Assembly (NCBI GenBank): GCA_036382775.1
Contig: DASVHD010000035.1
Location: 217,001-281,000 of the forward strand
Direction: 5' to 3'
Length of the DNA: 64,000 bases
From: a bacterium
GTDB taxonomy: Bacteria > Hydrothermota > Tepidihabitantia > SM23-42 > JAOAFX01
Made by a program: the position numbers and the translations under genes. The notes beneath the pieces are model-generated. The model saw nothing but the letters and a program-made list of their open reading frames with translations. It ran no database searches and was not told the origin of the DNA. The stretch's first letter is position 1; each line of letters opens with the position of its first letter. Of the stretch, positions 4,410 to 33,226 are shown piece by piece.

Positions 4410-4437
4410 TTGACACTGTGATTTTAAGGCATATAAT
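4410..4437 (+). promoter_or_regulatory. Leaderless promoter of rfbD
   Basis: Consensus -35 TTGACA (4410-4415) and consensus -10 TATAAT (4432-4437), spacer 16 bp. The GTG start of rfbD at 4443 follows after 5 bases and no Shine-Dalgarno sequence fits in between. The two divergent -35 boxes form a perfect inverted repeat, GTGTCAAC-CCC-GTTGACAC, at 4398-4416. Confidence 0.8.
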
Positions 4438-4442
4438 AACGC

Positions 4443-5297
4443 GTGAAGGTGTTCATAACCGGAGCCGATGGCGCGCTGGGGCAGGAAATGCAGAACATCC
4501 TAAGGGCCGAAAAAGTTAATTTCCTGCCCACGGACATCAATCAGCTCGACATTACTTATTTTAAGAAAGTCAATGAATCGGTCATGGCTTACCGGCCTGA
4601 CGTCATAATCCATTGTGCCGCAATAAGCGACGTCGACGAGTGCGAAAAAACCAAAGATCTGGCATACCGGATCAATGTTCTGGGCACGCTCGGACTGGCG
4701 ATCATAGCAAACAAGATCGATGCTAAGATCGCATATATAAGTACGAATTTCGTCTTTGACGGTAAAGCCGAACAGGCCTATGGCGAATATGACACGGCGA
4801 ACCCCATAAACGAATACGGCCGGACAAAATATCTGGGGGAACAGTGCGTGCGCGACACCTGTGAAAAATACTTTATTATCCGTACCGCCTGGCTCTTTGG
4901 GTTCAATTCCAAGACGTTCGTTTCCAAATTCCTGCAATCAAAGACAAAGCCCTCGTACCTCGACGTTATTTGCGATCAGACCGGTTCTTTTACATATATC
5001 CCGGACCTTGCACGAACGATCCTGTCGCTGATCGTATCAGACCATTATGGCCTTTATCATATCGTGAACTCAGGGCTAGGTACATGGCTCGATTTCATGC
5101 TCCGGGCCAAAGAACTCATGCGGTTCAACACCGAGATCAGACCTGTAAAAACCGAGGAACTCGACCTTGCCGCGCCGCGTCCGAGGTTTGCCGCGCTGGC
5201 GTCAAAAAATTATGAATTTTTATTCGAAAAAAAATTAAGGGTATGGACCGATGCTTTAGCGGATTTCATAAAGTCAATTCAAGGGCCGGGCAAATAA
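4443..5297 (+). CDS. rfbD: dTDP-4-dehydrorhamnose reductase
   Basis: 284 residues of the extended short-chain dehydrogenase fold. It has the Rossmann motif VFITGADGALGQ at the N-terminus, DVIIHCAAISDVDECE (the RmlD nucleotide-binding/substrate region), and the catalytic Y-x3-K in EYGRTKYLGE. It reduces dTDP-4-dehydro-L-rhamnose to dTDP-L-rhamnose with NAD(P)H, the last step of the pathway. It uses a GTG start placed 5 bases after a consensus -10 box. rfbA follows 70 bases later under its own promoter; rfbC and rfbB complete the pathway. The product would feed cell-surface polysaccharide. Confidence 0.93.
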   Translation: MKVFITGADGALGQEMQNILRAEKVNFLPTDINQLDITYFKKVNESVMAYRPDVIIHCAAISDVDECEKTKDLAYRINVLGTLGLAIIANKIDAKIAYISTNFVFDGKAEQAYGEYDTANPINEYGRTKYLGEQCVRDTCEKYFIIRTAWLFGFNSKTFVSKFLQSKTKPSYLDVICDQTGSFTYIPDLARTILSLIVSDHYGLYHIVNSGLGTWLDFMLRAKELMRFNTEIRPVKTEELDLAAPRPRFAALASKNYEFLFEKKLRVWTDALADFIKSIQGPGK

Positions 5298-5332: not shown

Positions 5333-5360
5333 TTGACTTTCCTCCAACAATCAATATAAT
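5333..5360 (+). promoter_or_regulatory. Leaderless promoter of rfbA
   Basis: -35 TTGACT (5333-5338) and -10 TATAAT (5355-5360) with a 16 bp spacer. The ATG of rfbA is 7 bases after the -10 box, leaving no room for a ribosome-binding site. Confidence 0.78.
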
Positions 5361-5367
5361 TCACGGT

Positions 5368-6435
5368 ATGAAAGGCCTCATCCTTGCCGGCGGTTTTGGA
5401 ACGCGTCTGCGGCCTTTAACATATACCGGGGCAAAACAGCTTATACCGGTAGCCAACAAACCGATAATCATCTACGGTATTGAAGCCCTGGCCCGGGCCG
5501 GTATCAAGGACATTGGCGTTGTCGTGGGTGAAACTGCCGCCGAAGTACAAGCGGCCCTGGGCAATGGCGATCTTTTCAATATCAGGATCACCTATATCCG
5601 CCAGGAGGCGCCGCTGGGCCTGGCGCACGCCATAAAGATCTCCCAAAAATTTTTAGGCAATGATCCTTTTATCATGTACCTTGGCGATAATCTGCTAAAA
5701 CAGGATCTCGCCGAACTGATCACTAAATTCAACAACATGAAATCTGATGCCTTGATCCTGCTGACCGAGGTGCCTAATCCCCAGCAATTCGGGGTCGCAG
5801 TCATCGACAAAAACGGGAAGGTGATAAAACTCATTGAAAAACCCAAGGAACCGCCTTCAAACTATGCTCTCGTCGGTGTCTATTTGTTCAATACCACCAT
5901 ATATAAGGCGATCGACAATATTAAACCGTCATTGCGCAATGAACTGGAAATAACCGACGCCATCCAGTGGCTTCTGGAGAACAAATACAATGTCGCTTCC
6001 GACATTGTGAAGGGCTGGTGGAAGGACACGGGTAAGCCCGAGGACATTATTGAAGCGAACCTCCTGGTCCTGGAATCGATCGAACCTCTCAACGAGGGTG
6101 TAAGCGTTGATTCGGTCATCAACGGACGCGTCCGTATCGAAAAAGGCGCCCGGATCGAAAAGAGCGTGATCCGGGGACCGGTGATCATAGGCCAGGGAGC
6201 GCGCATTATCAATTCCTTCATCGGTCCTTTTTCATCGATCGGGAATAATGCCATTATCGAAAACTCAGAGATCGAATGCAGCGTGGTCATGGAGGGCGCG
6301 AAGATCAAGGATATCGAAAAAAGGATCGACCGCTCGATCATCGGCAAGAACGTCGAGATCAGCCAGGTGGACCAATCGCCGCGCACCTATAAATTCATAG
6401 TGGGCGATCAGAGCAACATTGAACTGGTGAAGTAA
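5368..6435 (+). CDS. rfbA: Glucose-1-phosphate thymidylyltransferase, long form
   Basis: 355 residues. The N-terminal nucleotidyltransferase domain starts with MKGLILAGGFGTRLRPLTYT, the sugar-nucleotide pyrophosphorylase signature, and contains the metal-binding YLGDNLL motif. A C-terminal extension from about residue 250 shows hexapeptide-like periodicity (repeated I/V at six-residue steps, for example VIIGQGARIINSFIG), which predicts a left-handed beta-helix. The long, helix-bearing version differs from the roughly 290-residue enterobacterial RmlA. It makes dTDP-glucose from dTTP and glucose-1-phosphate, the first step of dTDP-rhamnose synthesis. The start is fixed by the leaderless promoter. 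Confidence 0.93.
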   Translation: MKGLILAGGFGTRLRPLTYTGAKQLIPVANKPIIIYGIEALARAGIKDIGVVVGETAAEVQAALGNGDLFNIRITYIRQEAPLGLAHAIKISQKFLGNDPFIMYLGDNLLKQDLAELITKFNNMKSDALILLTEVPNPQQFGVAVIDKNGKVIKLIEKPKEPPSNYALVGVYLFNTTIYKAIDNIKPSLRNELEITDAIQWLLENKYNVASDIVKGWWKDTGKPEDIIEANLLVLESIEPLNEGVSVDSVINGRVRIEKGARIEKSVIRGPVIIGQGARIINSFIGPFSSIGNNAIIENSEIECSVVMEGAKIKDIEKRIDRSIIGKNVEISQVDQSPRTYKFIVGDQSNIELVK

Positions 6436-6450
6436 AGGAAGGAATAGACG

Positions 6451-7449
6451 ATGGATTTCGCAACCAGGGTGTTTGCCAGGAAGCTCTCAGGTATCTTGTT
6501 TGTTATCGTCGCGACCATATTCCTGCCGGTTTCGCTTATTTCCGGAGAAGATGGAGAAGAGACCGTGAAACCGGTCGACGTATATGTGGGTGTTTATGTT
6601 AACCAGATCTTCGATGTGAGCCTCAAGGATAATAAATTCTCGGTTGATTTTTATGTCTGGTTCCGCTGGATCGGGGACAGCGTAAACCCGGTCGAAAGTT
6701 TTGAGGTAGTCAACGGCCGGATGGATTCAAAAAATGGCGTTTACGAGGATGAAATAAAAGGTTACCAGTATGCCAGCTGCCGGGTCGTCGCCACCATGAC
6801 CAAGTTCTGGGATATTTCAAAATTCCCCCTTGATGATCACATCATGACGATCGAGATCGAGGATAACGAAAACGAGGATTTCAAGCTGACGTACATTCCC
6901 GATACCGGGAATTGCGGCATCAATCCCCAGGTGGAAGTACCGGGCTGGAAGGTATCCACCGCCAGCGCCAGCGTTGTCGGCCATTCTTATCAGACGAACT
7001 ATGGCGATATCTCGCTGCCGAGCAACAATGAATCCGTCTATTCCCGTTTCATATATTCCATCGCGGTGGTGCGGCCAGGCTACGGTTATTTTTTCAAGCT
7101 GTTCTTTGGGGTTTTTATCGCGGCCATGATCGCCTTCTTGACGTTCTTTATAAAACCCACTGACCTTGACCCGCGCTTCGGGCTCGGGGTCGGAGCGATA
7201 TTCGCCGCCGTGGCCAGCGAATACGTGATCGCCTCCGCATTGCCCGATACAAATCTCATAACGATGGCGGACAAGCTGCACATCCTGGCGTTCATTTTCA
7301 TCTTTCTTTCCATCGCCGAATCGGTCCTGTCACTCAGGCTTTTCTCAACCGACCGGGAAGGACTGTCAAAGAACCTGGATAAAACATGCTTCATTGTCTT
7401 CATGGCCGTTTACATAATCCTGAGTTTCTTGTTGATTGTACTGCGGTGA
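6451..7449 (+). CDS. Pentameric ligand-gated ion channel homologue (Cys-loop family, prokaryotic type)
   Basis: 332 residues. A signal peptide (about 1-32) is followed by a beta-rich extracellular domain with the family WFRW motif (70-73) and the loop motif WDISKFPLDDH (120-130), which is the cysteine-less prokaryotic version of the Cys-loop with its conserved F-P-x-D. Four membrane helices follow: M1 about 211-234, pore-lining M2 about 243-264, M3 about 270-297, and M4 about 312-331, with only a short M3-M4 loop as in GLIC and ELIC. This is the family of nicotinic, GABA and bacterial channels. It has an AAAGGAAGG-like ribosome site and sits 15 bases after rfbA, so it should be co-transcribed with rhamnose genes. 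Ligand and ion selectivity are unknown. Confidence 0.88.
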   Translation: MDFATRVFARKLSGILFVIVATIFLPVSLISGEDGEETVKPVDVYVGVYVNQIFDVSLKDNKFSVDFYVWFRWIGDSVNPVESFEVVNGRMDSKNGVYEDEIKGYQYASCRVVATMTKFWDISKFPLDDHIMTIEIEDNENEDFKLTYIPDTGNCGINPQVEVPGWKVSTASASVVGHSYQTNYGDISLPSNNESVYSRFIYSIAVVRPGYGYFFKLFFGVFIAAMIAFLTFFIKPTDLDPRFGLGVGAIFAAVASEYVIASALPDTNLITMADKLHILAFIFIFLSIAESVLSLRLFSTDREGLSKNLDKTCFIVFMAVYIILSFLLIVLR

Positions 7450-7492: not shown

Positions 7493-7963
7493 ATGAAAAA
7501 GAAATCGATCATTGATGGCGTCACGGTTAAAAGCCTGCGCTTGATCCCGGATGAACGGGGACGGCTCATGGAGATCTTGCGCCGTGACGATGAACTGTTC
7601 GAGAAATTCGGCCAGGTCTACATGACGACCGCGTACCCGGGCGTGGTCAAAGCCTGGCACTATCACAAGCTCCAGAACGATAACATGACGGTGGTCAAAG
7701 GCATGGCCAAGATCGTGCTCTACGACAACCGGCCCAAAAGTCCGACCAAGGGCGTGATCAATGAATTTTTCGCAGGCGATGACAATCACGTCCTGATCCA
7801 CATCCCGAAACTCATCTGGCATGGTTTCAAGTGCATCAGCAACAAGGAATGCATCATCGTCAACACGGTCACCGAATGCTATGATTATGAAAAACCCGAT
7901 GAATACCGCAAACACCCTCACGATTCCGACATTCCGTACGACTGGAACAGAAAAGATGGCTAG
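7493..7963 (+). CDS. rfbC: dTDP-4-dehydrorhamnose 3,5-epimerase
   Basis: 156 residues with the cupin-like RmlC fold. It contains DERGRLMEILRRDDELFEKF near the N-terminus (the RmlC opening D-x-RG), YPGVVKAWHYHKLQ around the catalytic histidine, the later PKLIWHGF, and a C-terminal tail with the conserved tyrosine region. It epimerises C3 and C5 of dTDP-4-dehydro-6-deoxy-glucose. It is shorter than the roughly 180-residue E. coli enzyme, within the range of short family members. It lies downstream of the ion-channel gene (43-base gap) and upstream of rfbB. Confidence 0.88.
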   Translation: MKKKSIIDGVTVKSLRLIPDERGRLMEILRRDDELFEKFGQVYMTTAYPGVVKAWHYHKLQNDNMTVVKGMAKIVLYDNRPKSPTKGVINEFFAGDDNHVLIHIPKLIWHGFKCISNKECIIVNTVTECYDYEKPDEYRKHPHDSDIPYDWNRKDG

Positions 7964-8179: not shown

Positions 8180-9202
8180 ATGAAGGTACTGATCACCGGC
8201 GGTTGCGGTTTCATCGGTTCGAATTTCATCAAGTATTTCAACAAAAGGTATCCCCATTATAAGATCCTGAACGTCGACAAGCTGACCTACGCCGGCAATC
8301 TCGAGAACCTGAAAGGGCTGGAGAGGAAAAAAAATTATAAATTCGCCCGGGCCGATATCAGTAACGCTTCGATGATGAGAAAGCTGTTCGACAAGTTCAA
8401 TCCTGACTCGGTCATTAACTTTGCCGCCGAAACCCACGTCGACCGGTCCATCCTGAGCCCGGCGCCATTTATCAAGACGAACGTGATCGGCGTGAGCGTG
8501 CTGCTCAACCTTTCGCTGAAGCACAAGGTAAGGCGTTTCGTCCAGATATCGACCGACGAGGTCTACGGCTCCATCCTCCACGGCCGTTTCCGGGAAGACA
8601 GCCCGCTCGATCCTTCCAGCCCTTACGCGGCGAGCAAAGCTTCTTCGGATGCGCTGGTTATGTCCTATTACAAAACGCACCGCTTACCCGTCATCATCAC
8701 CCGCTCATCGAACAACTACGGACCGTACCAGTTCCCGGAAAAATTGATACCGCTGACCATCATCAACGCGCTGACCAACAAGAAAATCCCTGTCTACGGC
8801 GACGGCATGAATATCCGGGACTGGCTTTTTGTCGAAGACAACTGCAGCGCGATCGATTCGGTCTTTCACTCCGGAGAGATCGGCGAGGTCTATAATATCG
8901 GCGGCGAGAATGAGCTGGAAAATCTGTACGTCGTAAAAATGATCGTCCGCATTCTGGGGAAACCAGACAAGCTCATGACGTTTGTTCAGGACCGGCCCGG
9001 GCATGACTGGCGGTATTCATTGTCTTTGAGCAAAATCCGCCGGCACCTGAGCTGGCATCCCTCGACGTCGTTCGAGAGTGGTCTGAAAAAGACCATTGAG
9101 TGGTACAAGAAGAACACCAGATGGATCAAAAGCGCCCAGACCGGCGAATACCGCAACTTCTACGCGAAATACTATTCGCAGCTCGGGCTCGATACCCGCT
9201 GA
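8180..9202 (+). CDS. rfbB: dTDP-glucose 4,6-dehydratase
   Basis: 340 residues, extended SDR. It has N-terminal VLITGGCGFIGSNFIKYF (NAD-binding G-x2-G-x2-G), NFAAETHVDRSI (the RmlB signature), ISTDEVYGS, then YAASKASSDALV with the catalytic Tyr-x3-Lys, and RSSNNYGPYQFPEK downstream. It converts dTDP-glucose to dTDP-4-dehydro-6-deoxyglucose with bound NAD. It is the last gene of the rhamnose cluster, whose order here (rfbD, rfbA, channel, rfbC, rfbB) differs from the enterobacterial rfbBDAC order. Confidence 0.95.
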   Translation: MKVLITGGCGFIGSNFIKYFNKRYPHYKILNVDKLTYAGNLENLKGLERKKNYKFARADISNASMMRKLFDKFNPDSVINFAAETHVDRSILSPAPFIKTNVIGVSVLLNLSLKHKVRRFVQISTDEVYGSILHGRFREDSPLDPSSPYAASKASSDALVMSYYKTHRLPVIITRSSNNYGPYQFPEKLIPLTIINALTNKKIPVYGDGMNIRDWLFVEDNCSAIDSVFHSGEIGEVYNIGGENELENLYVVKMIVRILGKPDKLMTFVQDRPGHDWRYSLSLSKIRRHLSWHPSTSFESGLKKTIEWYKKNTRWIKSAQTGEYRNFYAKYYSQLGLDTR

Positions 9203-11521: not shown

Positions 11522-11885
11522 CAATACTGCGAAATCGATAAGTCGGACAAATCCCTGAATTTAGGATCAAATCTGGAAATTAGTCCCCATTCTGTTGCGC
11601 CGATAGATTACCCCCTCCCTGCGGGAAGGACGATTAGAATTAATTATTTAATAGGGAGAGGAGTGTGGAAGACGCATACGACAGCGCAACGATTGCAGAA
11701 ATACTGGATTCCCGCTGGAGTTTACCCCGTACCCGATACGGGGCGGGAATGACAACGGAGGGCTCGCAATGACCCCGATTAGACTTTCAGTCTAACGAGG
11801 CAGGCAGAAACAATGGATTCCCGCATGCGCGGGAATGACAATGGTGGGATTGACTTTCCTTCGTTTTCTCGTATAATACAACCGC
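11522..11885. repeat. Intergenic stretch with dispersed palindromic repeats
   Basis: No gene is visible. Two copies of a palindromic repeat of the type GATTCCCGC...GCGGGAATGACAA occur at about 11707-11755 and 11815-11842; the second is compact (ATTCCCGCATGCGCGGGAAT). A CCCCTCCCTGCGGGAAGG hairpin lies near 11612-11630. These resemble short repeats found between genes in many environmental genomes. Similar but distinct families recur at 34.2 kb, 54.2 kb and 55.6 kb. Confidence 0.6.
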
Positions 11886-11958
11886 GGGTCATTAGCTCAG
11901 TTGGCAGAGCATCGGATTTTTAATCCGGTGGCCGCAGGTTCGAATCCTGCATGACCCA
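11886..11958 (+). tRNA. tRNA-Lys (anticodon TTT)
   Basis: A 73-base cloverleaf: acceptor GGGTCAT pairs with ATGACCC, D arm GCTCAGTTGGCAGAGC, anticodon arm TCGGA-TTTTTAA-TCCGG with anticodon TTT at positions 34-36, T arm GCAGG-TTCGAAT-CCTGC and discriminator A. The terminal CCA is not encoded. One T-G wobble closes the anticodon stem. Confidence 0.95.
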
Positions 11959-33199: not shown

Positions 33200-33226
33200 T
33201 TGACATATCGGTCATATTTATATAAT
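33200..33226 (+). promoter_or_regulatory. Promoter of carbamate kinase, nearly leaderless
   Basis: -35 TTGACA (33200-33205), -10 TATAAT (33221-33226, 15 bp spacer) or the overlapping TAATAT (33223-33228, 17 bp spacer). The ATG at 33237 is 10 or 8 bases from the box, leaving at most a few leader bases and no ribosome site. Confidence 0.65.

Follow-up and report, generated by a model that had tools for sequence, protein, structure and literature searches.

Why does a gene resembling that of a neurotransmitter receptor lie within a rhamnose gene cluster of a bacterium? The question has two parts, namely whether the product is a pentameric ligand-gated ion channel (pLGIC) at all, and whether it takes part in the synthesis of dTDP-rhamnose. 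Bacterial pLGICs serve as structural models for neurotransmitter receptors. According to PMC4795631, none of the microbial pLGICs had been studied in vivo as of 2016.

The window that we analyzed is a stretch of 64,000 nucleotides of bacterial DNA, and the features discussed here are listed in Table 1. The host lineage is called WOR-3 (Caldifarciminota) in our comparisons. The first-pass annotation had placed the channel between rfbA and rfbC, on the same strand and 15 bases after rfbA, and this placement was exact. That is, the ORF has precisely the bounds given in Table 1 and starts with ATG; 15 bp separate it from the rmlA stop codon, and 43 bp lie between it and the start of the rmlC-like gene. 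The gene called rfbC encodes an RmlC-like cupin, of which the TIGR01221 score (39.7 bits) is well under the cut-off of 155.75. The cupin gene is present in the rml operon of relatives too.

Table 1. Positions of the features of the window, and of two fusion genes found in another genome (last two lines)
Feature	Coordinates	Strand	Basis or source
Promoter-like site TTGACA-16-TATAAT, 12/12; -10 ends 5 bp before rmlD	4410..4437	+	consensus match only
rmlD, dTDP-4-dehydrorhamnose reductase	4443..5297	+	TIGR01214 256 bits, cut-off 224
Promoter-like site TTGACT-16-TATAAT, 11/12; -10 ends 7 bp before rmlA	5333..5360	+	consensus match only
rmlA (long type), glucose-1-phosphate thymidylyltransferase	5368..6435	+	TIGR01208 492 bits, cut-off 320
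AGGAAGG, Shine-Dalgarno-like, 8 bp 5' of the channel ATG	6436..6442	+	read from sequence
pLGIC subunit, 332 aa	6451..7449	+	profile, PDB, model and fold searches
DFYVWFRW, residues 66-73, strand beta2, loop D region of the ligand face	6646..6669	+	alignment
FPLD Pro-loop, Cys-loop equivalent, residues 125-128	6823..6834	+	P126 and D128 in 33/33
Helix M1, residues 212-233; G220 replaces the kink proline	7084..7149	+	model, alignment
Helix M2, residues 239-261, pore lining: D-2', P-1', R0', G2', G6', F9'	7165..7233	+	model, alignment
Helix M3, residues 272-299	7264..7347	+	AlphaFold model
Helix M4, residues 303-330	7357..7440	+	AlphaFold model
rmlC-like cupin, dTDP-sugar 3,5-epimerase family	7493..7963	+	PF00908 E 5.8e-14; syntenic in relatives
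rmlB, dTDP-glucose 4,6-dehydratase	8180..9202	+	TIGR01181 462 bits, cut-off 365
Peripla_BP_6 + pLGIC-type ligand-binding domain + MscS + cNMP-binding, 1168 aa	L131:3633-7136	+	genome G387
Peripla_BP_6 + pLGIC-type ligand-binding domain + MscS, 971 aa	L135:3666-6578	+	genome G387

The product had been described as a full-length prokaryotic pLGIC, and an HMM search with two Pfam models had been proposed as the check. The outcome of this check was divided. The Pfam models gave E 4.2e-4 (20.3 bits) for Neur_chan_LBD and E 0.92 (10.2 bits) for Neur_chan_memb, both under the curated cut-offs of 26 and 28.1, respectively, and the NCBIfam models LGIC_1 (E 4.1e-11) and TIGR00860 (E 5.8e-8) stayed far under their family cut-offs. 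Among 33 members of the family, 20 matched Neur_chan_LBD and 12 matched Neur_chan_memb at E <= 0.01. When the Pfam ligand-binding-domain model was run on the genome of the window, the channel gene was missed, and the control also gave no match. The profile, PDB and fold searches, however, were decisive. A phmmer search of PDB with the channel itself matched the bacterial channels 6fl9 (E 3.2e-10) and 4yeu (E 1.5e-9). The profile built from the 33 members matched ELIC at E 5.4e-33, spanning positions 20-316 of 319, and GLIC at E about 1e-28 over almost the full length; the best PDB chain was a chimaeric one (E 3.9e-36).

The AlphaFold model of the channel (pLDDT 90.8) consists of a beta-sandwich followed by four transmembrane helices, in agreement with the four membrane helices annotated earlier. 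The top Foldseek matches of this model were GLIC and GABA-type receptors (E about 7e-21). All 50 of the matches listed by VIA-align were pLGICs, with Z values of 24.4-25.2 and rmsd of 2.2-2.6 over 274-282 residues. The conserved residues point in the same direction. The FPLD stretch, previously read as a Cys-loop equivalent, is a Pro-loop of the form [F/Y]PxD, in which the Pro and Asp are kept in 33/33 members of the family and in 42/42 aligned sequences. The pre-M1 residue R208 is found in 40/42 of these sequences, R242 at M2 0' in 41/42, and P265 of the M2-M3 loop in 42/42. No cysteine pair brackets the Pro-loop around residues 115-138, so that the eukaryotic-type Cys-loop is absent. The sequence makes a signal peptide plausible. 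Judged from sequence and model, the protein is a genuine member of the pLGIC (Pro-loop receptor) superfamily, for which assembly into a pentamer and ligand-gated conduction are predicted.

The closest known systems are ELIC and GLIC. Like them, the channel has a full-length ligand-binding domain and four helices, a Pro-loop without cysteines and, in the model, a short M3-M4 link; the fold is close to that of GLIC (Z about 24.5), but the identity to GLIC is only about 16-18%. The channel differs from both in that the DFYxW strand stands in place of their sequences, and in that its clade lacks the M1 proline and carries G6' and F9'. Compared with animal channels, the model shares the fold of GABA-A beta3 (Z 25.2), and the start of M2 has an R-x-G-L-G stretch similar to that of GlyR. 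In contrast to the animal Cys-loop channels, it has no Cys-loop cysteines. Its pre-M2 sequence D-P-R is neither the cation nor the anion motif of animal channels as these are given in PMC4795631.

To describe the subfamily, we aligned 42 sequences including that of the window, 26 of which form the clade of the window (WOR-3, Myxococcota, Azospirillum and others). The position of the M1 kink proline is occupied by T, G or A in 26/26 of this clade and by P in 16/16 of the outer group. In PMC4795631 this proline is listed for 77% of the superfamily and G at the same position for 5%, and the position is therefore a variable and not a defining one. In the pore, G6' and F9' are present in 26/26 members of the clade and G2' in 23/26; the prime numbers follow an alignment to the GlyR M2 of 4x5t together with the customary scheme, which we presume to apply here. 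The apparent invariance of DFYVWFRW was set aside, because the motif had been the search seed and the count was biased. Counted without this bias, DFYxW is found in 18 of 32 aligned rows (30 loci, one other phylum), with the last positions varying, and in the other 14 rows, many of them from longer proteins, it is missing or unaligned. From the alignment and the alternation of strand residues, this strand probably lies on the ligand face. As far as sequences can tell, the channel belongs to a widespread subfamily characterized by the DFYxW ligand-face motif and an unusual pore.

The gene itself is intact and maintained. When it is set against the two WOR-3 orthologues, substitutions are seen at 62-63% of third codon positions but at only 18% of second positions. 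Since third positions differ far more than second positions, the gene is under purifying selection. Its GC content is 0.495 and its GC3 is 0.652, and its codon usage lies inside the range of 13 neighbouring genes. This composition shows that the gene was not acquired very recently from a host of different composition. It is present in one copy in its own genome, where the sole other match has E 0.3.

A consensus scan for sigma-70 sites gave the strongest promoter-like sites directly before rmlD and rmlA. The one before rmlA is the last site listed on the + strand upstream of the channel, and none is listed on this strand between 5361 and 7856. Because the genes are closely packed and no promoter-like site lies between them, the channel is probably co-transcribed in an rmlA-channel-rmlC transcript. 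In the whole window, 56 sites matched at least 10 of 12 positions, as compared with a mean of 19.3 in 20 mononucleotide shuffles. Further near-consensus sites were seen at 4404-4377 (-) and starting at 33200 (+), 47326 (-) and 37978 (-), and the -10 elements of such sites end 1-10 bp before ORF starts, a spacing that suggests leaderless mRNAs in the window. A tRNA gene lies at 11886-11958 (+; Rfam 76.4 bits), and a promoter-like site starts at 11850.

We then consider whether the channel belongs to the rhamnose pathway. The synteny set comprised 22 rmlA loci from 20 relatives of the order, the genus of the window being represented by one genome; 6 of 27 genomes had no rmlA match at the threshold, and an rmlA-like locus of G019 (L081, 50% identity) was left out. 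In 21 of the 22 loci rmlA is followed directly by the rmlC-like gene, the match edges overlapping by 1 bp at one extreme and lying 68 bp apart at the other, and in the remaining one (L089) rmlA leads straight to rmlB. In the window the distance between rmlA and rmlC is 1057 bp. The channel was found in none of the 22 loci from these 20 genomes. Thus, the channel is not a conserved component of the dTDP-rhamnose operon, and by this comparison it has been cleanly inserted into an rmlDACB operon that the relatives conserve.

The orthologues in WOR-3 lie beside unrelated genes. In G001 the channel lies between YbjN-like and trypsin-like genes, which are upstream, and the gene of a BNR-repeat protein, and in G024 its neighbours are an unassigned gene, a WG-repeat protein and a PNPOx-like gene. 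The best match of the trypsin-like neighbour in two genomes of the same genus was 43%, as against 100% to itself. As this neighbour has no close counterpart in the genus, the G001 copy also lies in an accessory region. A tblastn search (E 1e-6) of the available flanks detected no rmlA, rmlB, rmlC or rmlD homologue near the channel at any of 53 channel loci, among which are one fragment (L042), a WOR-3 locus counted twice (L004 = L046), short contigs and sensor-domain-only matches; the positive control of this search lay within WOR-3 only, and several loci end at contig ends. A search for conserved neighbours over 41 channel loci and the window gave no partner common across lineages. The broadest neighbour cluster (13 loci; its longest member an ABC-type protein of 586 aa in L039) was taken as a common unrelated family.

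Two options had been raised by the first-pass annotation: that the channel links the state of the envelope polysaccharide to ion flux, or that it is a passenger, with absence from the cluster in close relatives named as counter-evidence. That absence is what we found, so that the proposed link is left unsupported and the passenger option gains support. Our literature search returned nothing combining ligand-gated ion channels with dTDP-rhamnose, and nothing on WOR-3 with ligand-gated channels. On the genomic context or in vivo role of such channels, the papers listed gave background but otherwise nothing to the point.

We therefore think it very probable that the gene encodes a periplasm-facing homopentameric pLGIC that was inserted into an older rmlDACB operon, where its position sets its expression, and that it has no catalytic or obligatory role in rhamnose synthesis. 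The following mechanism can be considered. Since the genome has a single copy of the gene, the channel would be a homopentamer; it would sit in the inner membrane and project its ligand-binding domain into the periplasm. A small periplasmic solute may bind between subunits, in a pocket that would include the strand residues Y68-x-W70-x-R72. The signal would be passed from the FPLD Pro-loop and the pre-M1 R208 to the M2-M3 loop (P265), and the pore would open at a gate around F251 (9'). GLIC has an acidic residue at -2'. The acidic ring formed by D240 at -2' tips the prediction somewhat towards cation rather than anion permeation here, with the reservation, stated in PMC4795631, that charge near M2 is an unreliable predictor of selectivity in prokaryotic pLGICs. 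In the lineage of the window, the gene would have been inserted between rmlA and rmlC with the operon left intact. Transcription from the rmlA promoter would now run on into it, so that its expression is set by where it lies, and it would have no catalytic or obligatory role in dTDP-rhamnose synthesis.

In the best surviving alternative, functional coupling, the channel would respond to an envelope component that contains rhamnose, or to precursors of it, by changing ion flux, and this would be the reason for its capture into the operon. The tight gaps (15 and 43 bp), the Shine-Dalgarno-like sequence, the common codon usage and the presumed co-transcription are all in keeping with it, and the native codon usage is also consistent with long co-residence, time enough for a functional link to have evolved. 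We consider it improbable, however, because the channel is missing from the operon of the 20 relatives, its orthologues lie elsewhere and the 53 channel loci show no rml genes. In addition, the ligand-binding domain is predicted to face the periplasm, on the other side of the membrane from the Rml enzymes and their nucleotide sugars, which are cytoplasmic.

The distribution of the channel is patchy, in keeping with an insertion: within the phylum it is present in 3 of 147 genomes, and in a wider set in 11 of 390. No relative was found in the viral contigs searched. Ten plasmid records contain relatives; these are mainly Azospirillum megaplasmids and most of the records are unannotated. On the B510 plasmid the channel gene is part of a run that includes substrate-binding-protein genes and alanine racemase, and one Streptomyces plasmid record has a channel among hypothetical genes. 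A sporadic distribution suggesting mobility is likewise described for the prokaryotic ART-LGICs of sensor operons by Tasneem et al. (2004, PMC549065), as are proposed chemoreception of small solutes and the argument from single copies to homopentamers. The partners named there (PBP, Cache and MCP-N) are not found with the channel of the window, which lies instead in a sugar-nucleotide operon.

In the tree, the three WOR-3 channels form one clade (98/99), as would be expected if the channel had stood in the operon of a WOR-3 ancestor and been lost or moved in other lineages. Such an ancestral position would need a loss in all 20 sampled relatives together with restoration of a clean rmlA-rmlC junction, and the copy of the window joins that of another WOR-3 family (99/92) rather than that of its own, a grouping of which the alternative is not firmly rejected (p-AU 0.054). 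We thus regard an ancestral position as very unlikely. The same values favour, but do not establish, horizontal transfer between WOR-3 families, and we do not claim such a transfer. Apart from this, the channel of a MAG titled Klebsiella pneumoniae (L029) groups tightly with those of Myxococcota (100/99), and its Klebsiella label is therefore doubtful. Least credible of all is a metagenomic misassembly joining the channel segment into the operon, since, even though this is a draft genome of 51 contigs and the only one of its genus in the comparison, the contig is 355 kb long and reaches the segment after about 223 kb, the syntenic operon continues on both flanks, the join coincides exactly with the space between a stop and a start codon, and the composition is like that of the neighbours.

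Relatives of the channel have other contexts. In 13/13 Azospirillum-type loci (L007-L015 and L018-L021; one labelled Roseomonas), the channel follows TssM-TssA-Hcp-UPF0114 on the same strand, as in the type VI secretion neighbourhood upstream of the channel at L019:1380-7913. These loci represent one lineage and hence are not 13 independent events. The literature search yielded nothing that joins a ligand-gated ion channel with type VI secretion and Azospirillum. A second channel-like gene stands beside the first at L006:6865-7995, L016:99-1109 and L040:9087-10049, and such tandem genes may possibly form heteropentamers. A Cache protein is encoded upstream of the channel in L026 and L027, and L043 has an N-terminal NMT1-type binding protein. 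The tandem, Cache, NMT1 and type VI secretion contexts fit the chemoreceptor proposal of PMC549065; they are not common to the window. In two related Myxococcales loci, a DUF4337 membrane protein adjoins the channel (L005:8976-9692 and L006:6064-6777, both on the - strand).

The sensor domain is also found on another type of pore. Two paralogues of G387, both open frames, carry a pLGIC-type ligand-binding domain in front of MscS (Table 1), with the strand motifs DFNIWFRY in L131 and DMRIWFRY in L135. The FPxD motif is absent from both, as would be expected of a sensor that has no pLGIC pore to act on. In a profile-profile comparison the middle domain matched the channel family with a probability of 98.8 (E 8e-17, 176 columns), and the match covers the ligand-binding domain and ends at the start of M1. 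Neither phmmer nor a two-sequence profile matched the MscS-fused sensor domain to PDB, and the support for the relation consists of the profile-profile comparison and the A1 profile. Two genomes of the phylum of G387 were searched, and G387 was the positive one. Separately, the gene at L130:4797-5867 (+) encodes a sensor domain that contains ADYYLWFRWEGD; the membrane segments after this domain are unrecognised as a pLGIC pore, and the protein has no FPxD and no Pfam match.

In conclusion, the position in a sugar operon looked like a functional clue and the comparison with relatives says otherwise, so that a false lead is spared. Of lasting use is the subfamily itself, which is widespread, has an unusual pore (no M1 proline, G6', F9') and conserves a strand of the ligand face. 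Better clues are offered by the contexts of its relatives, that is, the type VI secretion and UPF0114 neighbours, the PBP and Cache partners, and the MscS-fused sensor domain. The last of these is the more novel finding. We tentatively speculate, as a possibility with the odds against it, that the DFYxW periplasmic sensor is a portable module used on at least two unrelated pores, those of pLGICs and of MscS, and that the copy in the window was captured under an envelope-sugar promoter and is co-expressed from it. If so, sensing by the channel would be expressed together with the synthesis of the envelope.
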